Assembly (NCBI GenBank): GCA_019449635.1
Contig: JAGRPI010000004.1
Location: forward strand, 62,001-126,000
Direction: 5' to 3'
DNA from: Candidatus Ferrigenium bremense
GTDB lineage: Bacteria; Pseudomonadota; Gammaproteobacteria; Burkholderiales; Gallionellaceae
DNA length: 64,000 bases
Each line of letters begins with the position of its first letter. The stretch's first letter is position 1. The position numbers and the translations under genes were made by a program. Shown in pieces: positions 5,789-38,238 of the stretch. The notes beneath the pieces are model-generated. The model saw only the letters and a program-made list of their open reading frames with translations, was not told the DNA's origin and searched no databases.

Positions 5789-6648
5789 GGCACATATCGT
5801 GTGCACCTCACTTGCCATGCCGCCGACATCCGATGAGCACTCCATCGTGCACATCGGTCGTCACGCCGATTGTGCTGGCCGTTTAAGCGGCCAGCTTATG
5901 AAAACCATGCGTCCCATACAGGGCCGCATATTCCCCTCGCATAATGCGCGAGGGGCGCAGCAAAAAGACGGCCACCGGAAAATCCCTCATCGCTGCGCGA
6001 CCGCTGTACGCGGCCCTGCGGGTGGGGTTTTCCTTGCCTCGCTGAACGCGAGTCATGACCGCTTTTTCCTGCCTACATTCGCTGCGCTCATTCCGCACTT
6101 CCATAACCGCCGCGCTTATGCGCGTCGGTTATGTACGTTTGGGGCCGGCATGCGCGCCTCGCGGCGCGCGCCCCCCGGCTTTGCCGGGCTCACGCCTCCC
6201 CGGAACGGGGAGGCCCGCGCGATTGCATGCAATCGCGCGGCTGCGGTTCGGTTGCGTGGCAACTCGGGCTGGACGCCCGACCCGGAAAGCCGGGGGGCGC
6301 GCGCCGCTACGCTCTCTTGCCGGCGGGGCATTGCCCCCCACTTTCCGACCGCCGCTGGGGCGGCTGGAATCGCTGGGGCGATTCCTCGGAAGTGGCTCCC
6401 CCCGCGCCTTCGCGCCCACGCTGGGGCGTGGTCGCTGTGGCGGACTGCTGGCGCGCCTGCGCCAGCGTCCCATCGCACCATCCGTAGGCTCACCCCGCGC
6501 TTATTGCGCGGTCTCGCCAACGGCTGGGGCGACGGCTCCCCTCCGCTTGCCCCTGGCATCGCTGCGCGCTTTGCTTGCCTGCCCTCGCCGCTGCAATCGG
6601 CGAGGTGCGGAGCGCATCCTTTCCAATTTTTTTCAGTGAGGTGAAAAA
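5789..6648 (+). other. 860-bp structured non-coding region, candidate transfer origin
   Basis: No credible gene is present; frames across it are open only because of base composition. It is dense in inverted repeats: GCTGGCCG-TTTAAG-CGGCCAGC (5874-5896), CCCCTCGC...GCGAGGGG, ATAACCG...CGGTTAT, and the palindrome GCGCGATTGCATGCAATCGCGC around 6216-6237. It also holds the twin TGGG-loop motif (6338-6395) and a third TGGG hairpin (6416-6431). Its place between the Replic_Relax operon and the coupling-protein gene is where a transfer origin would be expected. The upstream segment CGGGC-TGGAC-GCCCG near 6265 recurs near 38120. Confidence 0.55.
6338..6395 (+). ncRNA. Twin TGGG-loop structured motif, copy 1
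   Basis: An outer stem (6338-6348 with 6386-6395) encloses two hairpins. Hairpin 1 is GCCGC-TGGG-GCGGC (6351-6364). Hairpin 2 is GGAATCGC-TGGG-GCGATTCC (6366-6385). The same architecture, with changed but still paired stems, is at 38011-38069. The base GTGGCTCCCCCCG following the stem is also conserved. It may be a DNA structure of a transfer origin or an RNA; strand of action is unknown. Confidence 0.6.
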
Positions 6649-8481
6649 ATGACGCTCGCAAAAAATCAAAATTCCAGTGCCGGTGCGCTGGTTTGGCTTT
6701 CCTGGACATCCGCTGCGCTGGTTGCGGCTTGGCTTCTTTGGACGTTCCCGACCTTCATGCGCTACCTGCTGGCCGACGGCTGGACCGGCGGCCAGACCGT
6801 GCTCCTTGTTTGGGCCGGCATCGTTTTCTTCAAAATCGTTAAATTCGGGTTTTGGTTTGCCTTGGCGACCGCACCCGGCATCGTCACTTTCGCGGCCAAG
6901 ACCGACTCTGCGCTGCGCGCGCCAGCCCTCGCCATCGCTGCGCTCGGCTTGCTGCCGCTGCCAGCATTTTTCCTTGGCAACTTCTGCGCCGATATGGTTT
7001 TTGTTGAACGCATGCGGCCGACGGATTTGGGCTGGTGGACTGGCGGAATGCTGGCCGCTGCCGCGGCCGCATTCTGGTGGCTTCGCCACGGCCAAGATCG
7101 CGCCGAGCGGCTGCGCGCTCGGCTGACCAAGCGGTCGTCACTCGAGCGCAATAAACGCACCGACGTTCGGGAGATCGATTCGTTCCTTCCTGCACAGATC
7201 GGCTCGTTCGATCCCCTCAATTTCGTGCAGCCGTCGCGCGGTCTTTTCGTTGGGCTCGATGAGAACCGGATGCCGGTCTACATTGATTCCGAAACTTGGC
7301 GGCTCAGCCACGTCCTGCTGAGCGGGCGCACCCGCTCGGGCAAGGGTGTGGCTGCGCAGATACTGCTGTCGCAGGCGATTGGGCGCGGCGAATTTGTGGT
7401 CGTGCTGGATCCCAAGAGCGACTCCCATATGCCGCACGTGTTCCGGGCGGCCGCGCTGCGCGCTGGCCAGCCCTACGTGTTTCTGGACCTGCGGCCGGGC
7501 AAGCCGGCGCAGGTCAATCTCTTCGCCGGGTGCGACGAAGAGACCTGCGAAAATATGCTCATTGGAGCCTTTTCCCTTGCGGAGAAGGGCGAGGCGGCAG
7601 ACTTCTATCGCCTCGCTGATCGCAAGGCCGCCCGCGAGGCGGCGGCCTTCATTGCCGCTGGCCATACTGCTGCCGAGGCTCTCGCCGAATTCGGTTCGAC
7701 CTGGCTGAACTCGGCTGTCGGCTTTCACGCCGCACTGGAAGAAATGGTCGACCTGCAGCCGGTCAATGCCGCCTCCGGCGGCATCGATATCGAGGCGCTG
7801 GCGCGCACCGGCGGGTGTTTTTACGTCGTGGGCGACATGGGGAACACGCGGGTCATCCGGATGCAGCGCATGATATTGATCCGGCTGATGATGCTCGCGA
7901 AGCAGGGGCGCGCCGAGCGGCTGATGTCGGTACTGGCCGACGAGTTCAAGGTCCACATCTCGCGCCCGTTCATGACCAGCCTGGGCGCTGCCGCAGGCTG
8001 GGGGATGCACGTCATTTTGGCCTTTCAGTCCTTGCAGGACTTGGCCGACGTGCCGGCCGATCTGGACAAGGATTCGGTTCGCGGCGCTGTGATGGAGAAC
8101 TGTGCGATCCAGCTCTCCTACCGGATCAAGGATCCGGAAACGGCGGAGTGGCTTGCAAAATCAACCGGGACGATTTTGGTCGATGACGAGACGCGGCGCG
8201 TTGAGCGGAACATCGCCTTGGCCGAGACCGTGCTGCCGGAGCGCACTATCCGTCAGGCCGAGCGTGCCTTCATCGACACCAACATGCTGATGAATCTGCC
8301 CGCCGGCTGCGGCGTGCTCACTGGCGCGACGAAGCTGCCTAGCTTTTGCTACACATCTCCAGTTATTTCGCCGAAGGACCTCAAGGCCACCGCGCCGATG
8401 CCGGCGGCGTCGGCTGCGCTAAGCGCTGCCCAGCCGGCCGCGCTAGCAGTCGTGGCCACGGCCAAAGAGGATTTCGTCTAG
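6649..8481 (+). CDS. traD: TraD-like type IV coupling protein
   Basis: This 610-residue VirD4/TraD-type ATPase delivers the relaxed DNA to the secretion channel at the inner membrane. The N-terminal 150 residues contain four hydrophobic segments. Walker A is SGRTRSGKG at about 225-233; the last residue is G rather than S/T. Walker B is VVVLDPKSD near 250-258. A further motif SVLADEF lies near 428-434. The start follows GAGGTG with good spacing. Length and membrane topology match F/SXT-type TraD rather than TraG of P-type systems. The gene lies directly after the candidate transfer origin. Confidence 0.85.
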   Translation: MTLAKNQNSSAGALVWLSWTSAALVAAWLLWTFPTFMRYLLADGWTGGQTVLLVWAGIVFFKIVKFGFWFALATAPGIVTFAAKTDSALRAPALAIAALGLLPLPAFFLGNFCADMVFVERMRPTDLGWWTGGMLAAAAAAFWWLRHGQDRAERLRARLTKRSSLERNKRTDVREIDSFLPAQIGSFDPLNFVQPSRGLFVGLDENRMPVYIDSETWRLSHVLLSGRTRSGKGVAAQILLSQAIGRGEFVVVLDPKSDSHMPHVFRAAALRAGQPYVFLDLRPGKPAQVNLFAGCDEETCENMLIGAFSLAEKGEAADFYRLADRKAAREAAAFIAAGHTAAEALAEFGSTWLNSAVGFHAALEEMVDLQPVNAASGGIDIEALARTGGCFYVVGDMGNTRVIRMQRMILIRLMMLAKQGRAERLMSVLADEFKVHISRPFMTSLGAAAGWGMHVILAFQSLQDLADVPADLDKDSVRGAVMENCAIQLSYRIKDPETAEWLAKSTGTILVDDETRRVERNIALAETVLPERTIRQAERAFIDTNMLMNLPAGCGVLTGATKLPSFCYTSPVISPKDLKATAPMPAASAALSAAQPAALAVVATAKEDFV

Positions 8482-8931
8482 GCCGCTCCCATGGATAACT
8501 TGCAGCTCCCGAAGAGGCAATCGCCGTCACGCCTGCGGCGACACGGCTCACGAATCAAAAGCGGGTTGTCATCGCCACGGCTACGCCGTCGCGATGGCTG
8601 TTTTGAAAAAGGCGTGGCGCTGCACGCAGCGCCGATTTGCTGGAAGGATTGGAAGCCGTTTGTTGTGCTCGCCCATTCGTTTGCGAACATCAGTTGCGGA
8701 GCCACCCTTGCGCCGACATGCCGGGCAGCCGGGGAAAAGCGCACAAGTCACGCCAAACCGCCTGCGGCGGGCGCAAGCGACCGTGGCAGTGCTCGCCTTC
8801 GGCTCCGCGCTGGCCGCACCACTCGCTCGCTTTTGTCATGCCTTGTGCCCCCGTCTAAACGCCCGTCAGATCGTCGCGGACAGGGTGAGGCGGCTCCGAA
8901 CCGATGTAAACCACAAACGAAAGGGCAAATC
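8482..8931 (+). other. 450-bp hairpin-rich gap, no gene supported
   Basis: Open frames exist but have no start signals or recognisable sequence. Short hairpins recur, such as CACGGCTACGCCGTCG and TGGCGCTGCACGCAGCGCC. The style matches the gaps at 3041 and 5789. Confidence 0.45.
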
Positions 8932-9228
8932 ATGAGCACAACAAACAACCAATCCATCCAGCAAATCAACACCGCCGCCCTTCGCGGCACCCGCGAGGCT
9001 CACCAACCCGATGAAATTAAACCCACCACCATGAAAGGAACGAGCATGAATGCAGACCAATTCGCAACTGAAATTAAACGTCTCCGCGATGCGATCAACA
9101 ACTCTACAGAAAATGGAGAGCTGCTTTGTGACGAGTTGGCCTGTCGGCCCGACATTGCTGAGGCTGCGATAGAACTTGCAAGTGTGTTGTGCTTGATCGC
9201 CGGCATAACGCCCAACCAACAGGCATAA
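8932..9228 (+). CDS. Small protein of the element, unknown function
   Basis: The open frame of 98 residues has a disordered, polar N-terminal third. An internal ATG at 9046, preceded by AAAGGAA, would give a compact 60-residue helical protein beginning MNADQFATEIKRLRDAI, and could be the true start. It is followed closely by two further small genes with good ribosome sites. No family is recognised. Confidence 0.55.
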   Translation: MSTTNNQSIQQINTAALRGTREAHQPDEIKPTTMKGTSMNADQFATEIKRLRDAINNSTENGELLCDELACRPDIAEAAIELASVLCLIAGITPNQQA

Positions 9229-9243
9229 AAAAAGGAAACGCAA

Positions 9244-9585
9244 ATGGAAATGAAGATCAGTGGAATAACGTTCACCCGTGACGGCTACGGCGCCGACGAT
9301 TGCTGGTCCGCGAAGGCGGAGAACCATTATATGGAGGTTTCCAGCAAACCTGACGGCGATGGGGAATGGGCATGGAGTGCCTGGGCAGATTCAGGTGCAG
9401 AAGGCGTGACAAATGGCCGTCTGGTCTGCTTTTGCGTGGATGGCAAGGCCGACTCCATCGAGGACGCTATGCGTATGGCTGCTGGCGCTCGGAAACGCTG
9501 GCTTCGTGATTTGCTGGAGCTCGCTGCGCTGGCAGAGAAAGGGAGCTGTAATGAGCCTCATTCAAAAATTCAGAGCCTGGTCTAA
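9244..9585 (+). CDS. Small cytosolic protein of the element, unknown function
   Basis: The 113-residue protein has a tryptophan-rich centre (WSAKAENHYMEV... GEWAWSAWADSG) that reads like a small beta domain, followed by a helix. The start has a strong AAAAAGGAA ribosome site. Its 3' end overlaps the next gene by 35 bp in another frame. No family is recognised. Confidence 0.6.
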   Translation: MEMKISGITFTRDGYGADDCWSAKAENHYMEVSSKPDGDGEWAWSAWADSGAEGVTNGRLVCFCVDGKADSIEDAMRMAAGARKRWLRDLLELAALAEKGSCNEPHSKIQSLV

Positions 9586-9760
9586 ACGATTTTGGTACGA
9601 GTGGTTCGTGGAGCCGCAGCCAGAGGACAACGAGCCTCGCCGACGGCGAGGCCGTCGCCGGAGGCTGCACGAGTGCCGTCATGGTCGCTATCTGGATGCC
9701 TGCCCTGTGTGTGGCAACGAGCGGCTGGACGATACGACAGGGCTCTGGAACGACTACTAG
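9551..9760 (+). CDS. Very small basic protein with a possible zinc knuckle
   Basis: The 69-residue protein has an arginine-rich stretch (about 30-38) followed by HECRHGRYLDACPVCGNE, where CxH and CxxC could bind zinc. The start follows GGGAG upstream and lies within the previous gene. It may bind nucleic acid; no family is recognised. Confidence 0.5.
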   Translation: MSLIQKFRAWSKRFWYEWFVEPQPEDNEPRRRRGRRRRLHECRHGRYLDACPVCGNERLDDTTGLWNDY

Positions 9761-9795
9761 TCGCATTCTCAATTAATTTTTTGAAAGGACCTGAA

Positions 9796-10257
9796 ATGCA
9801 ATCTTCTCTTTCCCCCAGTATTCTGTTCATGGCCCGAGGGGAGGCCCTTGATAAGTTCGAGCAGGCTTCGCGGGATTCTTTCCTGCGCACCGTTACGCTG
9901 CTCCTCCAAAGCGGTATGGAGCTCCGCGAAATCGGTAAACGGCCACATCAACCCGCGGCTGTTGCAGAGCCGCGCATTCGTCAATTGCTCGACAGCATGC
10001 TGGATGCATCAACCGTCGGAACCGGTCAGGTCTTCGAAGCCGGCGAAATCAAGTTTTCCGGCATGGTAGATGCACACTTCGCCGACGAAACTCCTGAGAT
10101 TCGCGAAATGGCCATCAAAATCGCCCGCGAAGAGTACATCTACCAGTCTCCTTCGGAAATTCAACAGATGCTGTCCGAATGGGCGAATGAGGGCTGCTGT
10201 CAACACGGCCTCGACAGCCAAACCTGCCCCCTCGGCTGTTTCGAACACCATTTCTGA
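9796..10257 (+). CDS. Small protein before traH, unknown function
   Basis: The 153-residue protein is largely helical, with a cysteine-rich C terminus (GCCQHGLDSQTCPLGCFEHH) that may bind metal. A clear GAAAGGA ribosome site precedes the start. It sits 11 bp before traH and is likely in the same transcript. I do not recognise it as a known conjugation protein. Confidence 0.6.
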   Translation: MQSSLSPSILFMARGEALDKFEQASRDSFLRTVTLLLQSGMELREIGKRPHQPAAVAEPRIRQLLDSMLDASTVGTGQVFEAGEIKFSGMVDAHFADETPEIREMAIKIAREEYIYQSPSEIQQMLSEWANEGCCQHGLDSQTCPLGCFEHHF

Positions 10258-10268
10258 AGGGGGGCGAG

Positions 10269-11807
10269 ATGAAAATCAAACTGATTGTCGCCGTACTTTG
10301 TGCCTCGCTCGCGTTTTCGCCTGTCGCACAGGCGGTGTCCATGCAACAGATGTTCAACAACAACGCAATTACCAATAGCACGCCGGCTGGCGCGTATCAC
10401 GGGCAGACGCAGAACGTATACTCCGGAGGATCCTTTTCTGTTCGCGTCCCCCAGAAAAATTACCAGATGTTCTCGTTCTCCCCGCCATCGATTTCCGGTG
10501 GCTGCGGCGGCATTGACGCATTCGCGGGTAGCTTTTCATTTATCAATTCTCAGCAGCTTGTGACCGTGCTGCAGAACATCGGCTCTGTAGCGCTTTCGCA
10601 AGCATTTTTTATGGCCATCGATGCGATGTCGCCAATGGTCGGCGTAAACCTGAAGCAGATGATGGACAAGCTCCAGAAAGCTACCAACCAACAGATAAAT
10701 TCGTGCATGGTAGGAAAGCAGCTTGCCAATACCATGATGGGCGACACCCCCAAAAAAATCCAAACCTGGGCGACGGAAAATGCCCTGGATTTCGCGGTGG
10801 GTAACGGCTCATTTGATGACCGCGAGGAGGCGCGGCTGAATATCGCGAAGAGTGACCAGGAACTGACTAACTACATCAATGCGGCGGCAGCATCCGGGGA
10901 ATTTCCCCTCGGCAACCTCATCTGGAACGCCCTGGCAGAACAAAACGCGACTGCGATCGGAGACGAAAGGGTCACGGAATTCGAGACGCGGCTGATTATC
11001 AGCTTGGTCGGGACGACCATCATCACAAACTCGCCATCGGTTGCGGCGAGTGGTCGCCAAGCCCAGAAAACCATCACCGTCACGCCATTGGTGACGACCG
11101 AGACCTTGGCCAACTTCATCGGTTTGGATCCCAGCCAAGGCACGATCCTTGCGGGATTCCAAATTTACACATGCCAAGACGGCGATGCAGACCAGCAACC
11201 GACCGGTGGCGTTAGCGGCGATCCGGATCCGGCGCGAGTCTCGAATATCGGCGCGCTCCAATGCATAAAAATGACTCCGACCGATGTTAGCACGGCCGGT
11301 GGAGCATCGCTCATGAGCATGCGCGCCCTGGTCCACGAGCGACTGATGTCTATCAACGATGCGTTGCTCGCCGATCAGCCAATCTCGCAGACCGACAAGA
11401 ATTTTATTAACTCAACCAGCGTTCCGATCTACAAGATGCTCGCAGTAGCGAATGCCCTGAGCAAGAGCGGCCTTGGCATCGTGATGATTAACAGCCATGA
11501 AACTCTCATCGCAGCCCAATATGCGGACGGCTATATCAATGGCCTGTTCGATGTTCTCAACCAAGCTCTAACGAAGTATGCGCCGAAGGCCGGCGACGGC
11601 CTAGCCAGCTCAATCAAGGACGTGCAGCACAACATGCGAGAGGTACGAAAGAGCTTGGCCCAGCAAATCGCGAATGCCAACGTGCAGCAGACCAATGTCA
11701 ACGCGATCGCGCAGCAGGTCCTCGCGATGGAGCAGTTGATGATCGCAAACCTCCCGAACAACATTTCTGGGGCGATCTCGATGCGTCGGATGAAGGGCGG
11801 CAGGTAA
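10269..11807 (+). CDS. traH: F-type conjugal transfer protein TraH
   Basis: The 512-residue protein has a signal peptide (cleavage after ...SPVAQA) and the diagnostic TraH segment SGGCGGIDAFAGSFSFIN near residues 77-95, followed by QLVTVLQNIGSVALSQAFFMAID. TraH is a periplasmic/outer-membrane-associated mating-pair and pilus-assembly protein of F-type systems. Later cysteines (NSCMVG, YTCQDG, LQCIK) could form disulfides. The ribosome site GGGGCGAG is close upstream. It stands without the other F-type genes, next to TraG, as in SGI1-like islands. Confidence 0.88.
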   Translation: MKIKLIVAVLCASLAFSPVAQAVSMQQMFNNNAITNSTPAGAYHGQTQNVYSGGSFSVRVPQKNYQMFSFSPPSISGGCGGIDAFAGSFSFINSQQLVTVLQNIGSVALSQAFFMAIDAMSPMVGVNLKQMMDKLQKATNQQINSCMVGKQLANTMMGDTPKKIQTWATENALDFAVGNGSFDDREEARLNIAKSDQELTNYINAAAASGEFPLGNLIWNALAEQNATAIGDERVTEFETRLIISLVGTTIITNSPSVAASGRQAQKTITVTPLVTTETLANFIGLDPSQGTILAGFQIYTCQDGDADQQPTGGVSGDPDPARVSNIGALQCIKMTPTDVSTAGGASLMSMRALVHERLMSINDALLADQPISQTDKNFINSTSVPIYKMLAVANALSKSGLGIVMINSHETLIAAQYADGYINGLFDVLNQALTKYAPKAGDGLASSIKDVQHNMREVRKSLAQQIANANVQQTNVNAIAQQVLAMEQLMIANLPNNISGAISMRRMKGGR

Positions 11808-11852
11808 GGGAGCGCCCAAAAAGTTGCAACATTTTTGAAGTTGGAGGGGTAG

Positions 11853-14800
11853 ATGGCTTTTGCTTACGAGGTGTACTGTTATTACAACGTGGACATGCTG
11901 GAGGCGGTCTTTAACGGCGTCGCCATGATTGTCAACGGCGGAGGATATTCCAATCTTATCAAATCCGTTTTGACGCTCGGTGTCATCATCATGGCAGCGG
12001 CTTCCTTGGCGTCGCAGCGGTTCGAAGGGATGAAATGGCTGGTTGTGGCCAGCATTTTCTACATCGGCTTCCTGGGGCCGAAAGTGAACGTCATGCTGGT
12101 CGATAGGATCGCTGCGCAGCCTCCCAAGGTTGTCGCCAACGTTCCCGTCGGTCTTGCCTTCATGGCGCACTTCACGAGCAGCGTCGGCGACTGGATGACG
12201 ACGACCATGGAAAGCGCGTTCACCGTCCTGCCGAACAGTTTGAAGTTCGGTGCGGATCCCGCCACGGCTTCGCCTGGCGAGACCCGAGGCCTGCTGTTCG
12301 GCGCTCGGCTGCTGGATGAGAGCCGCCGAGCCGTTATCAGCGATCCCGTGCTGCGGCAGGATTGGTACAGCTTTATCCGAAACTGCACCATTTACGACAT
12401 CGCGGCAGGCCGCATCGATCCGGCTGCACTCCAAACGTCCACAGACGTGATTGGTATGCTCAGCAATACGTCTGTTTCCCGCATGACCACGCAAACCGAG
12501 ACCGGCAAGCCGGCACAGGACTCCTGCAACCTGGTCTATCCGAATCTGGTCCGCCGTCTGAATCTCGATACCATCAAGGAAGCAAACGCGCTAGGTCGAT
12601 TCCTCAATCCCAACTTCAAGACCACGGATCCGAATGCGGCCGTTCTGGCCGCGTACAACACGCAGGCGGCCGATGCTACCCAGCTCATGCTGGGTGTCTC
12701 AAAAAGTGCGACCGAAACCATCACGCAGGCGATGGCGATCAACCTGATGGACTCGGCTGGCGCTGTCATCGGTCAGCAGCTCCAGGATCCTGCTGCCGCC
12801 TCAATTGCGTTAGCCCAGGCACAGGCAGAGGCATCGGCGAATTCCAGCTACGCCACCATGGCAAAGGTCGCGGAGAGCGCGATGCCGAAGATTCGCAACG
12901 TCATCGAGGTCGTGGTGTATGCGACGTTCCCGATTGTTATGCTCATCATTCTCGTGGCTGGTCATCGGGCTGGGGCGCCGCTCAAGGCGTATTTCATGAC
13001 GATGATTTGGCTGCAACTGTGGCCGCCACTCTATGCCATCCTCAATCTCGTGGTGACGATGGAGACCGCCAAGCAGACAGCGGCGATTGCCGCTGCTGCA
13101 GGCGGAGGACTCACCATCGCCTCAGCTTCCGATATTGGCTCGGTTTCGCTTTCTTCCCAGGCGATTGCTGGCTATATGGTGATGCTCATCCCAGTCATCG
13201 CCGGAGCCATCACGAAGGGGGGAGAACAGGCGATGACATCGCTGGCCAGTTCGCTTACCGCGCCATCACAGCAAGCCGCCAGCAAGGCAGGCGAGCAGGT
13301 TGCGACCGGTAATCTCAGTTATGGCAACACCAGCCTGGACAACCACTCCGCGCACAATACGTCGATGAATAAACACGACACCAATTTCGCATTTAAGTCC
13401 GGCATGATGACCACGCAGACGCCGAGCGGCGGCAGCGTTAATGTCGGCTCGGACGGTACGACTTGGGGCGCTGAGGCGAAAAACGATCTCCTGGTGCGCG
13501 GTGGCCTTGCGAAGTCGGTCAAGCAATCGCATGAGGCAGCTCACGAATCTGCGGCGCGTGTTTTGCAATCTGAGCGCGCAGCGCTCACGGATGCGACGAG
13601 CGCGGTCCTTGGCCATTCCAGCATGTTCACGATGGACGCTAAAAACGGCGTCCAGTTGAGCAATGAAGCACGCAAGGGCATGACGGCAGAGGCGGTCGAG
13701 TCGTATTCAAAGACGGCGACACTGGCCAACACCCTGCGCGAGCGCGCGGGTGTCACCCAAGAAGAGGCAGTCTCACTGTCTGGCGCGGTGGCCGCTGGCG
13801 CATCCATTGGGGATGCCAGCAAGGCTCTCCTCGGCAAGGTCGGCGGCAAGGCGTCGAAAGCGCTGCGCGGCCTGGCTGACGACGTGGACACCGGGGCGCG
13901 TATGGGGGGCTCGATCCAGGGCCGCAAATCTCTTGCCCAAGAAATCGACCAGTCCAGCGTTGCCCAGGAAGCCCGCGAGTCTGGCCAGCGCTTTGCCAAT
14001 AGCCTCAGCAAGGGCGAATCGGCCATCTATACGCACGGCAGCGGCGCTGCAGGCGATCGGAAACTGTCCGCATCGCTGGATCGCGTGAAGTCCGCGCAGC
14101 ACGGTGTCGAGGTCGCGGCAAGCAAAGAAACCTCCGCACGTGAATCAATGAAGCGGGCGGAAGAAACTGCAAACAAGTTTGAGGCCGAAATACTTGCGGA
14201 TCCGAAGAAGTTCGAGAATCTGGCTCAGGAAAATCCTTGGATCGATGCGGATGGAAGGGGGCATGAATGGACCCTCGGCACATATCTGACAACTCAGCAC
14301 GTTGGAATGAAGGAACGCATGAATGAGGCGTTGATGCGAGGCCTTGGCATCGAGACACCGAAGGCCGACGCGGCGACCGCCGGCGTGATCCAGACTCCCG
14401 ACCAGTTCCACGCCCAGGGCGTCGAACAGGTGCGTACCCAAGCAGCGAAGGACACCGCCGCCGCCACGGCGCAGGGCGGGGCGAATACCGGGGCCGTGCG
14501 AGCGGCGCAGAATGCCCACGGGGTCGAGCTTGGCGCGGCTGGCTCGGCCGACCGCAAGGAGGCGGCGGCACTGCATCGACAAGTGGGCGGCGGCCAGATC
14601 AAGATGCAGGGCGATCTCACCAACGCCGGCTTGGCCCTCGGCCAGCACCGCGAGAAGTTTGAGGCGGGCGTGCGCGAGGGTAATGCACGTTCGGCTTACG
14701 AGTCCTTCCAGGCTGGCGTTGCAGCCAATCCTGAACTGGCTGCTGCGCTTGCAGCTTCGCCGGTGCTTGCGAGCCTTAGCAGCGCCCTTGGTGAAGCCGT

Positions 14801-15125
14801 GATGGGAGGCAACAAGGATGGAGGAAAGGGAGGTGCCGGAAAGGTCGCCAAAACCGCCGCAGAAGCCGCGTCGCATGTCGATGATGCTGCTGATATAGCC
14901 AAGCTGGAAAAGGTCTTGCAGGCCGCGCGCGGCGTTCGCAATGTATCGGCAGCGGTAACCGCAGGATCTGGTGTTGGCCTGCCGGTTGCTGCTGCTGAGA
15001 TGGCGTTAACCGAAGGGCTGTTTATGCTGGCCGATAGTGTCCTCGGCAATCTTAAAGCGGAGAGGGGACTGGCTGACATGCCCCCACCTGGTGATGGGGG
15101 TAGGGGTCTGCGTCAAAACGGATAA
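11853..15125 (+). CDS. traG: F-type conjugal transfer protein TraG
   Basis: The 1090-residue protein has an N-terminal membrane domain (hydrophobic segments near 30-70 and 345-445) and a long polar, alanine-rich C-terminal region (about 480-1050) with helical repeats. This is the layout of F TraG, which acts in pilus assembly and mating-pair stabilisation and interacts with entry exclusion in F. The opening MAFAYEVYCYYNVDMLEAVFN and the PIVMLIILVAGHRAG... LQLWPPLYAILN stretch are typical. A GGAGG-like ribosome site precedes it 45 bp after traH. It is somewhat longer than F TraG (938), mostly in the C-terminal part. Confidence 0.87.
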   Translation: MAFAYEVYCYYNVDMLEAVFNGVAMIVNGGGYSNLIKSVLTLGVIIMAAASLASQRFEGMKWLVVASIFYIGFLGPKVNVMLVDRIAAQPPKVVANVPVGLAFMAHFTSSVGDWMTTTMESAFTVLPNSLKFGADPATASPGETRGLLFGARLLDESRRAVISDPVLRQDWYSFIRNCTIYDIAAGRIDPAALQTSTDVIGMLSNTSVSRMTTQTETGKPAQDSCNLVYPNLVRRLNLDTIKEANALGRFLNPNFKTTDPNAAVLAAYNTQAADATQLMLGVSKSATETITQAMAINLMDSAGAVIGQQLQDPAAASIALAQAQAEASANSSYATMAKVAESAMPKIRNVIEVVVYATFPIVMLIILVAGHRAGAPLKAYFMTMIWLQLWPPLYAILNLVVTMETAKQTAAIAAAAGGGLTIASASDIGSVSLSSQAIAGYMVMLIPVIAGAITKGGEQAMTSLASSLTAPSQQAASKAGEQVATGNLSYGNTSLDNHSAHNTSMNKHDTNFAFKSGMMTTQTPSGGSVNVGSDGTTWGAEAKNDLLVRGGLAKSVKQSHEAAHESAARVLQSERAALTDATSAVLGHSSMFTMDAKNGVQLSNEARKGMTAEAVESYSKTATLANTLRERAGVTQEEAVSLSGAVAAGASIGDASKALLGKVGGKASKALRGLADDVDTGARMGGSIQGRKSLAQEIDQSSVAQEARESGQRFANSLSKGESAIYTHGSGAAGDRKLSASLDRVKSAQHGVEVAASKETSARESMKRAEETANKFEAEILADPKKFENLAQENPWIDADGRGHEWTLGTYLTTQHVGMKERMNEALMRGLGIETPKADAATAGVIQTPDQFHAQGVEQVRTQAAKDTAAATAQGGANTGAVRAAQNAHGVELGAAGSADRKEAAALHRQVGGGQIKMQGDLTNAGLALGQHREKFEAGVREGNARSAYESFQAGVAANPELAAALAASPVLASLSSALGEAVMGGNKDGGKGGAGKVAKTAAEAASHVDDAADIAKLEKVLQAARGVRNVSAAVTAGSGVGLPVAAAEMALTEGLFMLADSVLGNLKAERGLADMPPPGDGGRGLRQNG

Positions 15126-15212
15126 GGCGACCTCATCGGAAGCGGCAAAAGCGTCTGGGATTATTGTGCTGCAACTTATGCCGCAACAACAGGTCGTTGC
15201 GCCGCTATCAAA

Positions 15213-15230
15213 GTAGTAGATATCTACTAC
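15213..15230. promoter_or_regulatory. 18-bp palindrome, candidate operator (copy 1)
   Basis: GTAGTAGAT-ATCTACTAC is a perfect palindrome. A copy with one changed base is at 15456-15473, 243 bp away, embedded in a longer shared context. This is the look of a protein binding site, possibly for a regulator of traH/traG or of the downstream genes. Confidence 0.5.
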
Positions 15231-15249
15231 TCTTTGGCGGGTTTCCGGG

Positions 15250-15412
15250 AAAAAACAGCTGAAAATGCACTTCTTTTTTTCACAAAATGCACCACCGGTA
15301 ATATGCTCGCAAAAAAGAGCTAAAAATGCAGTGCTTTTTTTGTAAAATCGTACCGGCAGGAATAAAAACGGCTACGGATGAAAAAAAAGAGCTAAAAATG
15401 CAGTGCTTTTTT
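15250..15412. repeat. Three direct repeats of about 31 bp
   Basis: Copies at 15250-15280, 15311-15341 and 15383-15412 share AAAAA-AGCT-AAAATGCA-T-CTTTTTT. Copies 2 and 3 are nearly identical. Each can fold weakly (A run with T run). The spacings of 61 and 72 bp rule out a CRISPR array. They may be iterons or tandem terminator-like units. Confidence 0.55.
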
Positions 15413-15455
15413 GTGCATCACACAAAAGGAACGCCGCACTCGCCAAGCTTGAATA

Positions 15456-15473
15456 GTAGTAGACATCTACTAC
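15456..15473. promoter_or_regulatory. 18-bp inverted repeat, candidate operator (copy 2)
   Basis: GTAGTAGA-CA-TCTACTAC differs by one base from the perfect palindrome at 15213-15230 and has the same downstream words. It lies about 120 bp before the next gene. Confidence 0.5.
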
Positions 15474-15592
15474 TCTTTGCCGAGTATCCGGGAATTTACA
15501 AAGGATTCCCTGAGCGGATCGTTTGACTGGCAATTGATGGGTGTTAAGATTTTGCGTCATTCAGACAAACCAACAAAAGGAGAATCAAGATC

Positions 15593-15910
15593 GTGCCCAA
15601 AAAATCATTACTGACCTTGTTTGTATTGGCGCTTTCAATTTCCACCGCAAATGTTCTTGCAGCAGACCTTGAGAAGATGCCCATAATCGCGCAATGGAAA
15701 GGGGGATTCAGCCAAACGATAATCACGAAGTATGCCGACTTTTCCGATGGTGTGGCTTGTTACGTTTTAAGTCCTACGGTGATGGGCACGAATTACGGGT
15801 CCGGGGATGTTAAGTTTGACGCCAATAATGCCGGTTCTATTAGCTGCGTGAAGGTTCTCGACTCAAAACAGAAAGGCGAGTCCGGCCACAAATCAGAAAA
15901 GGGGAAGTAG
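15593..15910 (+). CDS. Small exported protein, unknown function
   Basis: The 105-residue protein starts at GTG with AGGAG ten bases upstream. A clear signal peptide (KKSLLTLFVLALSISTANVLA) is followed by a mature part of about 80 residues with two cysteines (VACYVLS and GSISCVKV), suggesting a small disulfide-bonded periplasmic domain. The C terminus is charged. The pattern DGVACYVLSP...FDANNAGSISC recalls CreA-like periplasmic proteins, but the match is too weak to name. Confidence 0.65.
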   Translation: MPKKSLLTLFVLALSISTANVLAADLEKMPIIAQWKGGFSQTIITKYADFSDGVACYVLSPTVMGTNYGSGDVKFDANNAGSISCVKVLDSKQKGESGHKSEKGK

Positions 15911-16039
15911 GAGTCGCCTCAGAATTCGGAAAAAAATCGTACATACATGTTGTCGTTTTTGACAAAGTACCCCGTGCTATTTGCGGAAAGAGCGTGAGTT
16001 GATGTTCTATCAAATATGGTGCGATAATACATCACAACG

Positions 16040-16360
16040 ATGAAGCCCAACTATAAACCCCCGTTCTGCCGGTTTGTGAAGAAAGCTCACAAGCCCCTGC
16101 AGCTTGCCATCGAGGACGCTGTGAGTGAGGTTTGCGGCAACCCGGAAATTGGAGAGGCCAAAGTTGGGGACTTGGCCGGGATATGGGTCTACAAGTTCAA
16201 ATTCAATCGTCAGGAGTACCTGATCGCGTATCGCCCGCCAGCAGCGGAGGTTCGCCGGCAGGGGGTAGATGTGGAATTGTTGATTATTGATTTCTACCAG
16301 GCGGGTTCGCATGAAAATTTCTATGCCGAACTCAAGCGGTATCTGAAATCGGAGGGGTAG
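16040..16360 (+). CDS. Type II toxin, RelE/ParE family
   Basis: The 106-residue protein has the RelE/ParE layout: N-terminal helices (FVKKAHKPLQLAIEDAVSEV), GDLAGIWVYKFKFNRQEYLIAYR as the central strands, and a C-terminal strand-helix LLIIDFYQAGSHENFYAELKRYL. These toxins cleave mRNA on ribosomes or block gyrase. The antitoxin-like HTH gene starts 3 bp after its stop, a toxin-first order. In an integrated element the pair probably stabilises inheritance. Confidence 0.75.
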   Translation: MKPNYKPPFCRFVKKAHKPLQLAIEDAVSEVCGNPEIGEAKVGDLAGIWVYKFKFNRQEYLIAYRPPAAEVRRQGVDVELLIIDFYQAGSHENFYAELKRYLKSEG

Positions 16361-16362
16361 AA

Positions 16363-16686
16363 ATGGCACATGCGATGACTGCAGAGGATCTGTTCCAGGA
16401 TCTCAAGAAAATGCCGACAGTCGAGCGGCAGAAGTTTTTCGTGATCCTGTCGACCAATGCTTTCCGTGGCGATGATATGAGTCACGAGGAGCTGTTCGGC
16501 CATCTGGCCGGCGATAATTTCACGGCTCAGGAGGCAGCCGAATATCTAGAGGTCTCAATGTCAACCTTCCGGCGATTTGTTCTCGGTGGGCGTTTGACTC
16601 CAAGCTCGACAGTCGGACGCAATCAAATGTTCGCAGTTCCGGATATGAAAGCTTTCAAGAAGGCTCTGAAAGCAGCGAAGGGCTGA
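16363..16686 (+). CDS. HTH antitoxin partner of the RelE/ParE toxin
   Basis: The 107-residue protein has an excisionase-like helix-turn-helix in its C-terminal half (FTAQEAAEYLEVSMSTFRRFVLGGRLTP) followed by GRNQMFAVPDMKAFKKAL. A GGAGGGG ribosome site lies within the end of the toxin gene. The order and spacing indicate one operon. Antitoxins of this type bind their toxin and repress the operon. Confidence 0.7.
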   Translation: MAHAMTAEDLFQDLKKMPTVERQKFFVILSTNAFRGDDMSHEELFGHLAGDNFTAQEAAEYLEVSMSTFRRFVLGGRLTPSSTVGRNQMFAVPDMKAFKKALKAAKG

Positions 16687-16702
16687 TAAAAATCAAAAGC
16701 TC

Positions 16703-17695
16703 TTAACCCAGCTTACGCGCCAGATCCTCGGGCCGGGGGTGATAGTATCTTGCCAGCATTTTTGTGTCCTTGTGCCCTGTGACTTTCATCAACTCATGCA
16801 AGGCGAGTTTCTCGGCCATGCGACTCGTTGCCTCGTGGCGCAGATCGTGAAACGTCAAATCCGTAATTCTGGCACGCTTGCAGGCGCGCGCCCAGGCCTG
16901 TACAACCGCGCTTTGCGTAGTGCCAAGCACCTTACCATCAATACTGCGCGGCAACGCCTCCAAGGTGGCTTTAGCGCGGTTTGAGAGCGGCACATCTCGT
17001 GCTGTTCCGTTCTTTGTGTCGGCAAGGTGAACGTATGACTTTTTCAAGTCCACGTCTTTCCACTGGATTTTCAGCAGTTCCCCTTGCCGCATGGCCGTCT
17101 CGATCGCAAGCACAGCGAGTGGCTGCATCCAGTGGTTTGCCAGGGCGCCTTTCCCGCTGTTACTGAGCGCATCCAGCAGGCGCTGTTCCTCATCACCCTC
17201 CAGCCGTCGATCCCGCGCATTTTGGATGGACGGCTTGCGGATGTTTTGCAGTGGATTGGTAACCGCGATCCCCCATTCCTTGTTGCAGATCGAGAACAGG
17301 TGAGAAATGATGCTCAAGTCTCGATGCAGCGTGGCCGGTGAAACACTTTTCAGTCTTGCGTCGCGCCACTTGGCAAAGTCGGTGCTTTTCAAAGATGCCA
17401 GCGCACGGTTGGCCAGCGGGTCGGTCAACCATTTATTGATCCGCACAATTTCTTGGGCACACCCCTTTTTCGACGGGCTTATTTCAGCCGCATACCTGGT
17501 AAGCGCATCCCGGAGGGTTGTAGCCTCGGCTTCGGCACGGCTGACAAACACGCCGCGCCCCATTTCGCTTTCGGTCGTTTTGGCCCATAATTCGGCAGCG
17601 GCTTTTGTTTCGAACGTTTTGGTGAGCGGTGCAAAACCCTTTTTGCGGATCTGCACGTGCCACTGGTAATCGCCTTTTTTGCGTATAGCTGCCAT
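16703..17695 (-). CDS. int: Tyrosine recombinase (site-specific integrase)
   Basis: The 330-residue protein begins MAAIRKKGDYQW with an N-terminal arm-binding domain, then a SAM-like core-binding domain and a C-terminal catalytic domain. The catalytic residues are R in AMRQGELL, HDLRHEA (H-x-x-R), H in GHKD and the nucleophile Tyr in LARYYHPR near the end. The start at 17695 is preferred to the upstream in-frame ATG at 17773, because the extension crosses the arm sites. It lies about 110 bp from attR and presumably recombines the tRNA-Thr 3' half. Confidence 0.93.
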   Translation of the reverse strand: MAAIRKKGDYQWHVQIRKKGFAPLTKTFETKAAAELWAKTTESEMGRGVFVSRAEAEATTLRDALTRYAAEISPSKKGCAQEIVRINKWLTDPLANRALASLKSTDFAKWRDARLKSVSPATLHRDLSIISHLFSICNKEWGIAVTNPLQNIRKPSIQNARDRRLEGDEEQRLLDALSNSGKGALANHWMQPLAVLAIETAMRQGELLKIQWKDVDLKKSYVHLADTKNGTARDVPLSNRAKATLEALPRSIDGKVLGTTQSAVVQAWARACKRARITDLTFHDLRHEATSRMAEKLALHELMKVTGHKDTKMLARYYHPRPEDLARKLG

Positions 17696-17713
17696 GGTAT
17701 TTTTGCCTCGTAC

Positions 17714-17732
17714 TGTGCCAAAATTGTGCCAA
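17714..17732. other. Candidate integrase arm site, right end
   Basis: TGTGCCAAAATTGTGCCAA is identical, in the same orientation, to the left-end copy at 2902-2920. It overlaps the likely promoter region of int and could let the integrase or the AlpA-like protein regulate int. Confidence 0.55.
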
Positions 17733-17802
17733 AAATGTTTTTTTGCAGTGTAAATATACAGCAAAAGCCGCATAGAACAAAGGTTTGGTGATTTGGATAA
17801 TT

Positions 17803-17854
17803 ACGCACTCGTAACGCGTAGGTCGGAGGTTCGATTCCTCTCTCCAGCACCATC
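17803..17854 (+). repeat. attR: 52-bp copy of the tRNA-Thr 3' half
   Basis: The sequence is identical to 2768-2819 in the tRNA. It lacks the 5' half, so it is not a functional tRNA. It marks the right boundary of the element. Confidence 0.93.
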
Positions 17855-33481: not shown

Positions 33482-34531
33482 TCAGCGTAGTTCGTACCAG
33501 ACACCCCGTCCGCTTCCGTGCTGGTTCAGGTGCCCGCGTTCGATCAGCGTACGGAAATGTTGCTTGAGCGTGTTGCGGCTCGCTCCAGTCAGTTTGATGG
33601 CCTCGCCGATGGTGACGCGACCATGTTCGCGGGCAAATTCGACGATTTGCAACGAGAGCTCCGGCAAGGTGGCCAGCACAAGTTTTTCGCGTTCCACTTT
33701 CTTTTCAAGCCGCCTGAGCTGTTCGGCGAGTGATCGCAGGAAGAATGCCAGCCACGGTTGCCAGTTTGGGGCATCGGTGCGGATCGTCCCTTGGGTCTGA
33801 CGCAGTGCCAGATAATAGGCTTCCTTGTTCTGCTCAATGACACTTTCCAGGGAGCTGTATGGTACGTAGGCATAACCCGCCTGTAATAACAGTAGCGTCG
33901 TAAGCGCGCGGGAGAGGCGACCGTTGCCGTCCTGGAACGGATGAATCTCCAGAAACACCACCACCCACAGTGCAATGATTAACAAGGGGTGCAAGTGCCC
34001 GACAGTGCGTTCCTCTTGTACCCAGGTGACCAACTCCGTCATCAGGCGTGGCGTATCGAAGGGCGATGCCGTCTGGAACACAATGCCGATTTGCTTGCCG
34101 CTATCATCGAAGGCGGCGACGCTATTGGATGTAGTCTTGTAGTTGCCGCGATGCCATGCATCCTTCTCGCTGTAGACGAGCAGATTCTGATGCAAGTGCT
34201 TGATGTGGTTTTCGGTGAATGTGATGTCTTGCCACGATGAAAATACCAATTCCATGACTTCCGCGTAGCCAGCCACCTCCTGCTCGTCGCGACTGGCGAG
34301 GTTCTTGATTTGCAGGTTGGATAGCAAGCGTTCGACATCGCGGTCGGATAACTTGCTTCCCTCGATTCGGGTGGATGAGCCGATGCTCTCGATGGTGGCG
34401 ACGCGAAGCAGGGCTGACAGCCGACCAGGCGCCAACGTGCCCAAGGCACGCCACGCTCCCTTGAACTCATCGATCCTGGCGATCAGTGACAGGATGTCCG
34501 GGGTGATCTGGATTGTATCGGCTCGAATCAT
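33482..34531 (-). CDS. fic: Fic family AMP-transferase, copy 1
   Basis: The 349-residue protein has an N-terminal inhibitory motif (SSTRIEG, Ser53 to Gly58, fitting [S/T]xxxE[G/N]). The Fic core is HPFQDGNGRLSR (His197, Asp201), and a C-terminal winged helix reads VTIGEAIKLTGASRNTLKQHFRTL. Fic proteins transfer AMP or other phosphate groups to target proteins; here the active site is complete. The start MIRADTIQ is chosen because the in-frame extension upstream is a repetitive low-value stretch. A 90%-identical copy follows at 34868. Confidence 0.88.
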   Translation of the reverse strand: MIRADTIQITPDILSLIARIDEFKGAWRALGTLAPGRLSALLRVATIESIGSSTRIEGSKLSDRDVERLLSNLQIKNLASRDEQEVAGYAEVMELVFSSWQDITFTENHIKHLHQNLLVYSEKDAWHRGNYKTTSNSVAAFDDSGKQIGIVFQTASPFDTPRLMTELVTWVQEERTVGHLHPLLIIALWVVVFLEIHPFQDGNGRLSRALTTLLLLQAGYAYVPYSSLESVIEQNKEAYYLALRQTQGTIRTDAPNWQPWLAFFLRSLAEQLRRLEKKVEREKLVLATLPELSLQIVEFAREHGRVTIGEAIKLTGASRNTLKQHFRTLIERGHLNQHGSGRGVWYELR

Positions 34532-34644
34532 GGAACCAATAATACACCCAATTACACCCATTTCAAGACCGTTGCCCAGAAACATACCCATTAACATCCA
34601 AAAAACAGAAGAATGGGCAATAAATGCGCCGCAACGCTAAGAAA

Positions 34645-34667: not shown

Positions 34668-34697
34668 GTACCCCGTTGGGGAGGGTATTGTTGGTGG

Positions 34698-34856: not shown

Positions 34857-34867
34857 CAAAAGTGAAA

Positions 34868-35917
34868 TCAGCGTAGTTCATACCAGACACCCCGTCCGCT
34901 TCCGTGCTGGTTCAGGTGCCCGCGTTCGATCAGCGCACGGAAATGTTGCTTGAGCGTGTTGCGGCTCGCTCCGGTCAGTTTGATGGCCTCGCCGATGGTG
35001 ACGCGACCATGTTCGCGGGCAAATTCGACGATTTGCAACGAGAGCTCCGGCAAGGTGGCCAGCACAAGTTTTTCACGCTCGACTTTCTTTTCAAGCCGCC
35101 TGACCTGTTCGGCGAGTGATCGCAGGAAGAACACCAGCCACGGTTGCCAGTTCGGGGCATCGCTACGGATCGTCCCTTGGGTTTGCCACAGGGCCAGGTA
35201 GTAGGCTTCCTTGCCGTGCTCAATGACACTTTCCAGGGAACTGTAGGGTACGTAGGCGTAGCCCGCCTGTAATAAAAGTAGTGTCGTAAGCGCGCGGGAG
35301 AGGCGACCATTGCCGTTCTGGAACGGATGTATCTTCAGAAACACCACCACCCACAGCGCAATGATCAGCAAAGGATGCAGATGTCCGGTAATACGCTCCT
35401 CTTGCACCCAGGTGATCAACTCCGCCATCAGGCGTGGCGTGTCGAGGGGCGAGGCCGTCTGAAACCCAACGCCGAGCTGCGCGCCGTTTTCATCGAAGGC
35501 GGCGAGGCTATTTGATCTTGTCTTGTAGTTGCCGAGATGCCATGTATCTATCTCGCTGTAGACGAGCAGATTCTGATGCAACTGCTTGATGTGGTTTTCG
35601 GTGATGGTGTTGTCTTGCCACGACGAAAACACCAATTCCATGACCTTCGCGTAGCCAGCTACCTCCTGCTCGTCGCGGCTGGTGAAATTCCGGATTTGCA
35701 GATTAGATAGCAAGCGCTCGACTTCGCGGTCGGAAAGCTTGCTGCCCTCGATTCGGGTAGATGAGCCGATGCTCTCGATGGTGGCGACGTGAAGCAGGGC
35801 TGACAGCCGATCAGGCGCCAGCGTGCCCAAGGCGCGCCATGCCCCCTTGAACTCATCGATCTTGGCGATCAGTGACAGGATGTCAGGGGTGATCTGGATT
35901 GTATTGGTTCGAATCAT
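34868..35917 (-). CDS. fic: Fic family protein, copy 2, with altered active site
   Basis: The protein is about 90% identical to copy 1 over 349 residues; the C-terminal winged helix is nearly unchanged. The Fic core reads HPFQNGNGRLSR: the acidic residue that binds the metal (Asp201 in copy 1) is Asn. The inhibitory motif SSTRIEG is kept. In studied Fic enzymes the D/E at this position binds Mg, so copy 2 may have weak or different activity, or may be a regulator. It lies in the same orientation, 1386 bp from copy 1. Confidence 0.86.
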   Translation of the reverse strand: MIRTNTIQITPDILSLIAKIDEFKGAWRALGTLAPDRLSALLHVATIESIGSSTRIEGSKLSDREVERLLSNLQIRNFTSRDEQEVAGYAKVMELVFSSWQDNTITENHIKQLHQNLLVYSEIDTWHLGNYKTRSNSLAAFDENGAQLGVGFQTASPLDTPRLMAELITWVQEERITGHLHPLLIIALWVVVFLKIHPFQNGNGRLSRALTTLLLLQAGYAYVPYSSLESVIEHGKEAYYLALWQTQGTIRSDAPNWQPWLVFFLRSLAEQVRRLEKKVEREKLVLATLPELSLQIVEFAREHGRVTIGEAIKLTGASRNTLKQHFRALIERGHLNQHGSGRGVWYELR

Positions 35918-36030
35918 GGAACCAATAATACACCCAATTACACCCATTTCAAGACAGTTGCCCAGAAACACACCCATTAACACCCAAAAAACAGAAGAAT
36001 GGGCAATAAATACGCTACGACACTAGGAAA

Positions 36031-36351: not shown

Positions 36352-36377
36352 TAGTCAATTTTTTGCACATTGACTAG
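36351..36377 (+). promoter_or_regulatory. Hairpin over the alpA ribosome site
   Basis: CTAGTCAAT (36351-36359) and ATTGACTAG (36369-36377) form a perfect 9-bp stem with a 9-nt loop. The ribosome site AGGAG at 36376-36380 begins in the 3' arm. The structure could limit alpA translation, or the palindrome could be the AlpA operator. Confidence 0.5.
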
Positions 36378-36385
36378 GAGAACTT

Positions 36386-37458: not shown

Positions 37459-38238
37459 AATTGTTTCGCATCTGCCCAGACGAGCTCGGGTGACTCGATA
37501 CCAGGATGGCCGGTACGGATAAAGCGCATTGCAGGAGGGTGGTTTGACACAATGGATCGGATTTCTGGAATCGCTGGCAGAAGCAGGTCGGTGTGGAAAC
37601 AAGTCGGCTGCTTCGCGCACCCGTTTTGTTTTTTGCAGTATCCCTGCATTGTGCTGGCTATCGTCAACCATATCGTTATCGGTATGACGATATTCGATAA
37701 CGATATCTGATGGCGATATCTGATGTGAAAATCATATTTTGTGTTTGTCACCATCAAACACGGCGGAACGCCAGCAATGACGCCCTGTACGGGCTATTGC
37801 AGGCTCGGTGCTAGGGCACCGTCCTTGGTTTGTTGGTGGGGCGCGCCTCGCTTTGCTCGGCTAGGTGCCTTTTTGACCCCTCCCGCACTAAGCGTGCGCG
37901 ATGGGTCGGGCTGCCCCTCCATGTGCCGCTGCCGCAGCACACGGAGCCTCTGGCATCCCTCAAAAACGCACCTAGCCGAGCAAGTCGGCGCGCCGGGGTG
38001 CAAGCACCCCCCACTAATCGACCGCCGGTGGGCCGGCTGAATCCGCTGGGGCGGATTCTCGATAAGTGGCTCCCCCCGTGCCTGAGACAGGCGGCGCAAG
38101 CGTCACCTGTCTCAGTGGCTCGGGCTGGACGCCCGGCCCCACCGCTTCGCGGCGGCACCCTTTTCGCGGCGATGCCCTAGTGTGTGTGGGTCGGCCATGC
38201 AAAATATATAGGCCTTTTGATAGGCCGTTCGGCAACGA
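37459..38238. other. 780-bp structured non-coding region of the second element
   Basis: No gene is supported. It contains an A/T-rich part with the inverted repeat ATATCGTTATCG/CGATAACGATAT (37670-37706) and a tandem CGATATCTGATG (37701-37725). A GC-rich part follows with hairpins, including CTGAGACAGG/CCTGTCTCAG near 38083-38114 and CGGGC-TGGAC-GCCCG near 38120, the latter shared with the region at 6265. The twin TGGG motif lies at 38011-38069. Confidence 0.55.
38011..38069 (+). ncRNA. Twin TGGG-loop structured motif, copy 2
   Basis: The outer stem pairs 38011-38021 with 38059-38069 (one mismatch). Hairpin 1 is GCCGG-TGGG-CCGGC (38024-38037). Hairpin 2 is GAATCCGC-TGGG-GCGGATTC (38039-38058). 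Relative to copy 1 the stems differ by paired changes while both TGGG loops and the GTGGCTCCCCCCG tail are unchanged. Confidence 0.6.

Follow-up and report, generated by a model that had tools for sequence, protein, structure and literature searches.

A covarying twin-hairpin element tied to MOBC mobilization genes in proteobacterial islands and plasmids

Introduction

Two islands in a 64,000-nt stretch of the Candidatus Ferrigenium bremense genome (contig JAGRPI010000004.1; hereafter the window, whose positions are used throughout, with stem coordinates given on the + strand) each carry a short element in which an outer stem encloses two hairpins. A first-pass annotation of the window proposed that the two copies share a structure under selection that belongs to no described family, and left its function open. 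The question raised by this locus is whether such a fold exists outside the window and, if so, what it serves. The results described here demonstrate that the element is real, conserved, outside Rfam and tied to MOBC mobilization, which narrows its function to the mobilization module of MOBC elements.

Results

A covarying fold shared by two islands

The sequences and stems at both window sites agree with the twin-hairpin fold inside an outer stem that was originally drawn. Read on the + strand, the element consists of hairpin P0 (GGGGCATTGCCCC in one copy, GGGGTGCAAGCACCCC in the other), the 5' side of the outer stem P1, hairpins P2 and P3, the 3' side of P1 and then CTCCCCCC (Table 1). P1 is present in both copies but had been drawn too short; CCACT...AGTGG extends it to 11 positions. 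The tail that had been noted as fixed, GTGGCTCCCCCCG, is not unusual on its own, with 2 window matches at no more than 2 mismatches as compared to 2.4 expected. Taken within the window, the folds are unexceptional. Their strength is mild (z of -1.1 and -1.6 for the two copies against shuffles), and unconstrained RNA folding of a 77-nt copy 1 on the + strand gives a structure different from the one drawn. The case for the fold rests on its homologues.

A fixed-end pattern scan of GTDB contigs recovered one more copy, L011, in a Methylotenera metagenome-assembled genome. Exact-pattern scans found no copy in viral contigs and, among 101 genomes comprising the window's own and its relatives, matched only the window's own. 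Searching plasmids with the two noncoding stretches by blastn gave no match, and homology to plasmids is therefore visible by structure and not by sequence. Already among three sequences (both window copies and L011), 10 of the 23 pairs carry double changes. A covariance model, R1, was used to search 399 genomes of the order and matched seven: the window's genome, G279 (in two places), G257, G306, G413, G090 (weakly) and G233. The G090 match (R1 E 0.0095) was retained for its MobC-family neighbour and its fold. The G233 match (R1 E 0.0022) was rejected as chance because it overlaps an open reading frame (ORF), lies in a genome without MobC and reaches only 14.8 bits (E 2.7) with the later model R2.

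Covariation was counted in A2, a MAFFT alignment of nine sequences (both window copies plus seven relatives) that was not fitted to the structure, the structure being drawn from one row; a further alignment, A3, fitted to the model, was kept out of all counts. Because G090 and the other eight A2 members are in this alignment, their R2 scores follow by construction. Double changes occur in 17 of 23 pairs (50 cells as compared to a shuffle mean of 14.8), and paired cells amount to 87.3% versus 61.8% in shuffles. The covariation score is 0.647 versus 0.177 in shuffles, and slid pairings reach at most 0.214. None of 500 shuffles reached the observed value on any of five measures. These results bear out the proposal of a shared, covarying structure under selection in the two islands, and the covariance-model search that the first-pass annotation had called for yielded further matches in other genomes and in plasmids. 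The element also remains without a known family. Rfam 15 at the gathering score gives nothing for it; across the window and 21 distinct further loci, only tRNA, tmRNA and RNAI were found, all outside the element. With the threshold relaxed to E up to 1 over window positions 5790-6660, the only match was D12-methyl at 6167-6213, with 22.8 bits against a required 57.

The complement is the likelier folding strand

The element had been read on the + strand of the window, with TGGG loops. As the functional form, folding of this strand (hereafter the TGGG strand, also at other loci) is disfavoured by mismatch types, G.U counts and folding energies. When 28 cores were folded on the TGGG strand without G.U pairs, the 1x1 mismatches were A.C (9), A.A (5), G.G (2), T.C (2) and one each of G.A, T.T and G.T. 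Position 3 of P1 in 34 cores is A-T in 10, A.C in 20 (10 of 24 clusters), G-C in 2 and other in 2, which reads as a change from A-T to G-C via G.U on the complement. Some G.T also appears on the TGGG strand in the ungapped table, where the rows concerned have bulges or weak stems (L041, L030, L042, L028, L025, L083 and L098).

A stem around two hairpins was obtained in 31 of 34 cores on the complement as compared to 23 of 34 on the TGGG strand. In the cores folding this way, G.U pairs make up 33/306 of outer-stem pairs on the complement versus 1/195 on the TGGG strand. The hairpins run opposite, with 4/410 versus 11/309, and alternative folds account for some of these 11. Energy is lower for the complement in 30 of 34 cores with RNA parameters and in 33 of 34 with DNA parameters. 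Over regions of ~465 nt, it is lower in all 30 loci of a set from which L039 was dropped (near-identical to L038) and L083, L098 and L101 were left out; z is lower in 27 of the 30, with means of -8.8 for the complement and -6.9 for the TGGG strand (60 shuffles each). The core of copy 1 taken alone is about equal on the two strands (-33.1 for the complement, -33.6 for +), and its whole region is lower on the complement. These counts are not all independent, since the 34 cores form 24 clusters at 85%.

The outer-stem A.C mismatches, which are G.U on the complement, and the lower energy indicate that the complement is the likelier folding strand. Accordingly, CCCA/CCCC and not TGGG is the best reading of the conserved loops; the commonest loops on the complement hold CCCA. 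Both loops contain CCC in 20 of 34 cores and at least one does in 31, and a G-run precedes the stem on its 5' side (folding strand) in 33. Judging from the sequences, it is possible that the CCC loops pair with this G-run.

The element lies beside MobC and coupling-protein genes

Twelve loci were found by structure or pattern: both window copies, L011, L021-L025, L027 and L074-L076. Each has a MobC-family ORF ~0.2 to 3 kb away, the link being weak for copy 2, L021 and L075, and at five of them (copy 1, L011, L023, L024 and L025) a coupling-protein gene is clustered as well. Among ten neighbours searched with NCBIfam, NF041423 matched seven with E no higher than 0.1, and a single one of these passed the cutoff of that family; Pfam Replic_Relax scored above cutoff for L011 and L076 and not for the other neighbours tested. 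In the 399 genomes of the order, the MobC profile found 22, among them all five genomes with strong structure matches (hypergeometric 3e-7); G090 is not among the 22. This profile, from alignment A4, includes proteins from beside the element (four proteins of those five genomes, plus the window's), so the neighbour counts and the order counts are not wholly independent of it.

A scan of 369 genomes of the class gave R2 matches in four, the window's own together with G594, G713 and G500. In the latter three, a MobC-family ORF lies 160 to 350 bp from the element (hidden Markov model (HMM) E 2e-12, 8e-5 and 2e-6). The MobC profile matches nine of the 369 at E 1e-5, and two of the R2 genomes have only weak MobC relatives. 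When R2 was applied to 26 MobC loci of the order with 1.5-kb flanks, six matched at E <0.01: L077, L084 and L085, already in A2, and L083, L098 and L101, which are new.

Three observations concern individual loci. G279 holds two MobC loci and one with a distant MobC relative (L021, L022 and L101), each matched by R2 (E 0.00015 for L101). At ~5220-5275 of L067, a MobC locus without a good R2 match folds as a stem with two hairpins, whose + strand loops are TGGG and TAGG; the class is therefore probably wider than the model. The coupling-protein gene of L011, from Methylotenera, is split over two overlapping ORFs (4944-6658) and may be broken or contain a sequencing error.

The association was also approached from the protein side. 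Plasmid records were collected by similarity to the coupling protein or MobC (1369 and 1206 matched), and 21 plasmids were hand-picked for diversity (L030-L050), two of which needed a second stretch (L051 and L052). R2 matches 19 of the 21 (E up to 0.018), each time just upstream of the coupling gene. In relation to that gene, 3 matches are in + and 16 in - orientation. All but one of the 19 lie in unannotated DNA; the exception, in L044, runs over an ORF annotated as hypothetical. The plasmids without a match, L032 and L050, are CloDF13-like ColRNAI plasmids. In L032, the complement nevertheless forms a stem that encloses two hairpins with CCCA loops (-31.9 kcal/mol as compared to -21.9 for the other strand), and this fold adjoins a GACCACCC/GGGTGGTC repeat. 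L050, which looks near-identical to L032, was folded only with one outer-stem arm missing; the L032 stretch matches 837 plasmid records. Taken together, these results show that the element is associated with MobC and coupling-protein genes across Beta- and Gammaproteobacteria.

Ten aligned gammaproteobacterial plasmids, read by eye, share an order of parts. The series on the complement opens with one or two short CAATTTC...GAAATTG hairpins and another hairpin, continues with GGGGGGAGCC, the twin hairpin and GGGGGC..GCCCC, and then runs through GCACACCGTC, GCGCGACCACCCC, a variable loop, GGGGGTGGTCGCGCGTAGCGC and GACGGTGTGC to GCGTCCAGC-type hairpins. By eye, conservation looks highest in the arm that contains GGGGGTGGTC or GGGGTTGGTC and in the flank 3' of it. 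One side of the element carries one or two copies of the short CAATTTC...GAAATTG hairpin followed by TTAA or CTAA; the gammaproteobacterial plasmid loci with it are L033, L035, L041, L044, L045, L046, L049 and L051. Other recurrent hairpins, GCTGGACGC / GCTGAACGC, surround the element in L032, L033, L067, L074, L011 and at window positions 6262-6281, and are candidate relaxase or coupling-protein binding repeats.

The two islands in the window

Table 1. Features of the two element copies and their surroundings in the window
Feature	Position	Strand	Basis or remark
attL, 3' end of tRNA-Thr(CGT)	2794..2817	+	
MobC relaxase (MOBC, replication-relaxation family), 265 aa	4710..5507	+	NF041423 207.6 bits, cutoff 200; alignment A4
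Copy 1 long inverted repeat, 5' side	6161..6307; arms about 6161-6188, 6281-6307		Fold and by eye; encloses further hairpins
Copy 1 core	6320..6404	- (folding strand, complement)	Covariance-model match, itself on + strand
Copy 1 hairpin P0	6325-6337		
Copy 1 outer stem P1	6338-6348/6386-6395		One bulge
Copy 1 hairpin 1 (P2)	6351-6364		
Copy 1 hairpin 2 (P3)	6366-6385		
Copy 1 C-run	6396-6403		
Type IV coupling protein (TraD/MobB-like), 610 aa	6649..8481	+	PF02534, PF12696
TraH-like pilus assembly protein	10269..11807	+	NF010279, under curated cutoff
TraG-like mating-pair stabilization protein	11853..15125	+	NF010295, under curated cutoff
Tyrosine integrase	16703..17773	-	PF00589
attR, exact 24-bp copy of tRNA-Thr 3' end	17829..17852	+	
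Distant MobC relative, 288 aa	36592..37458	+	535 bp from copy 2 core; hhalign to MobC profile
Copy 2 long inverted repeat, 5' side	37840..37994; arms about 37840-37877, 37960-37994		Fold and by eye
Copy 2 core	37993..38078	- (folding strand, complement)	Covariance-model match, on + strand
Copy 2 hairpin P0	37995-38010		
Copy 2 outer stem P1	38011-38021/38059-38069		One A/A mismatch
Copy 2 hairpin 1 (P2)	38024-38037		
Copy 2 hairpin 2 (P3)	38039-38058		
Copy 2 C-run	38070-38077		
Copy 2 variable hairpin, directly after C-run	38080..38123		CCTGAGACAGG...CCTGTCTCAG

Copy 1 lies in a 15-kb island (2794-17852) at tRNA-Thr that has features of an integrative mobilizable element, namely 24-bp att repeats, an integrase and a relaxase gene. 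The gene order is MobC (813 bp from the core), the element, the coupling protein, TraH-like and TraG-like, with the integrase at one island end. The best plasmid matches of the coupling protein show ~45% identity over ~70% of its length. Among the island ORFs searched, which are part of the total, the coupling protein and the TraH-like and TraG-like proteins are the only type IV secretion system components recognised. The long inverted repeat beside copy 1 occupies the position equivalent to the GACCACCC/GGGTGGTC repeat of other loci. The island is reminiscent of SGI1-type islands, those with their own TraG/TraH. It also encodes a ParE-like toxin.

At copy 2, the 288-aa neighbour aligns to the MobC profile with an hhalign probability of 77 (E 2e-5), as compared to an E of only 0.089 for NF041423, and the MobC HMM misses it at E 1e-3. 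A profile of this neighbour picks up the L027 protein (E 2e-11), a protein within reach of the MobC HMM too (E 4e-7), and the neighbour is 62% identical to the protein beside a G279 copy. On these comparisons, the MobC link of copy 2 is weaker than at other loci. None of the ORFs tested near copy 2 was recognised as a coupling protein. Two Fic-related proteins, both of 371 aa, are encoded side by side nearby (33482-34597 and 34868-35983) and look like a tandem duplication.

Discussion

A folded single strand as a probable part of a MOBC origin of transfer

We consider it reasonably likely, though well short of certain, that both copies are part of the origin of transfer (oriT) of MOBC-relaxase elements and act as folded single-stranded DNA. 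We infer the oriT identity, the nick position, the identity of the transferred strand and the role in binding and rejoining as follows. Once single-stranded, the complement would fold as a three-way junction, with two hairpins bearing CCCA-type loops inside the outer stem. This fold would adjoin a small G/C hairpin and the long inverted repeat, which in many relatives holds GACCACCC...GGGTGGTC. The folded strand would be the transferred strand, and the fold would lie 5' of the presumed nick, held at the trailing end by MobC, the coupling protein or both. Holding it there could let transfer stop and the ends rejoin, with a structure replacing the covalent bond of other relaxases.

Several features agree with an oriT function. 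The element lies beside a MOBC relaxase gene at copy 1 and in 19 of 21 plasmids, with only a distant relative at copy 2. Inverted repeats are present at the element, and a GGGTGGTC-like motif occurs in many relatives, though not in copies 1 and 2. The variable orientation to the coupling gene fits a cis-acting DNA site better than an mRNA leader. DNA as the acting molecule is favoured by the fusion of the fold with a nick-like repeat and by the rarity of G.U in P2 and P3. A simple consensus scan of the window region turned up neither promoter- nor terminator-like sites, and in L033 it detected nothing resembling a promoter. In other oriTs, termination hairpins are located 5' of the nick, and if the CloDF13 nick is in GGGTG/GTC, where we take it to be, the present fold likewise lies 5' of the nick on the complement.

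Other observations weigh against this reading. The R2 and MobC sets of the class scan share only the window's genome and G594, leaving 7 of 9 MobC genomes without an R2 match, and 20 of the 26 MobC loci in the order lack one as well (L078 because its flank is too short). From these counts, the structure is a good predictor of MobC, and MobC is a partial predictor of this form of the structure. GGGTGGTC is absent from both window copies and from several further ones, and the position of the CloDF13 nick, which is presumed here, is unconfirmed by the literature searched. L033 has four terminator-like sites as compared to a shuffle mean of 1.1, one of them P2 itself. The G.U preference suits RNA equally well and is found in the outer stem only. 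Were the folded strand transferred, ArdC/zincin or antirestriction genes would be on the first-entering side in the seven gammaproteobacterial plasmids where they are in view (by annotation, with ArdC domains confirmed by Pfam in five); in L024, an ArdC/zincin-type gene is on the opposite side. In addition, relaxase genes typically lie in the part entering last, according to passages of PMC11541004, a rule that would give the opposite direction in those gammaproteobacterial plasmids; the same passages report no anti-defence enrichment for MOBC. Gene order is thus mixed with regard to the transferred strand.

Alternative roles

The main rival is a complement-strand non-coding RNA needed for MOBC mobilization in the manner of the SGI1 sgm-sRNA (small RNA), its fold binding MobC, the coupling protein or another plasmid protein, either in trans or during transcription through oriT. 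The strand-specific folding, the G.U pairs of the outer stem and the strongly negative mean z over ~465 nt would all be expected of such an RNA, and a required RNA beside oriT in a mobilization module has a precedent in the sections of PMC9299015 consulted. Nonetheless, neither region scanned (the window and L033) has a promoter-like site, no conserved promoter was seen by eye in the ten aligned gammaproteobacterial plasmids, G.U is rare in the two hairpins, and an RNA acting in trans has no need of the long repeat with a nick-like motif that is fused to the fold. An RNA of this kind is possible but on balance unlikely. We regard as improbable a single-strand initiation site or promoter of the ssi/Frpo type, which would start complementary-strand synthesis or early transcription on the incoming strand. 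A long folded single strand in a mobilization region would suit it, and Frpo works through secondary structure (as stated in part of PMC11541004). It is opposed by the nature of the conserved features, which are CCCA loops, G-runs and paired stems, and by the lack of promoter hexamers in a simple double-strand scan that is blind to mismatched hairpin promoters.

A leader or attenuator of the mob operon mRNA accounts for the 16 of 19 plasmid matches in which the folding strand is the sense strand of the downstream coupling gene. It is antisense in copy 1, L011, L023, L025, L030, L031 and L042, as well as in L032 by eye, and this variable orientation was taken to rule out a leader, to which we assign very little probability. 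As for chance similarity or a palindromic repeat without function, the weak z-scores in the window are what either would produce; both are refuted by the covariation, unmatched in any shuffle, and by the MobC association across many lineages, and are given practically no credence.

Comparison with known systems

The closest counterpart of the element is the CloDF13-type (MOBC) mobilization region. In L032, the fold likewise stands just before the coupling gene and mobC, with a two-hairpin stem whose loops are TGGG on the coupling-gene strand and CCCA on the better-folding complement, and with the adjoining GACCACCC/GGGTGGTC inverted repeat. It differs in a sequence diverged enough for R2 to miss it. 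SGI1 (MpsAB) is similar in having a structured stretch, sgm-sRNA/oriT, by its mobilization gene in an integrative mobilizable island (sections of PMC9299015). There, the required RNA has been shown (same sections), and its core excludes the oriT repeats. The SGI1 relaxase, MpsA, is of the tyrosine-recombinase type and not MOBC; no link to an MpsA-type relaxase was found here, copy 1 having MobC instead and the island integrase being a separate gene at the end. The pAD1 oriT also has a MOBC relaxase, TraX, from a Gram-positive system, with a binding site ~70-120 bp from the nick and no covalent intermediate seen (portions of PMC12857230). It has five direct repeats as opposed to a covarying three-way junction. 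Frpo/ssi promoters resemble the element as folded single strands near oriT and differ in their promoter hexamers, which a simple scan did not find here.

No description of the fold was found in the portions searched of the literature on the MOBC/CloDF13 oriT (including PMC6414798, PMC7755788 and PMC11389934), and an earlier one is possible. A structured oriT is of a known kind; as far as searched, what is new is that the covariation spans classes, that one strand is preferred and that the fold is a three-way junction.

Implications for MOBC transfer

For MOBC relaxases, which are restriction-enzyme-like, no covalent intermediate was observed, and how they recruit, transfer and rejoin DNA is stated as an open question in portions of PMC12857230. 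A fold common to gammaproteobacterial plasmids and betaproteobacterial islands offers a concrete substrate for this question. As a tentative extension, which is doubtful at present, MOBC conjugation may employ a folded, strand-specific nucleic acid as a structural cofactor, perhaps an RNA transcribed from oriT itself, which would stand in for the covalent relaxase-DNA bond in holding, delivering and rejoining the transferred strand. The covariance model locates candidate oriTs of the MOBC class and so helps to predict which elements can move.

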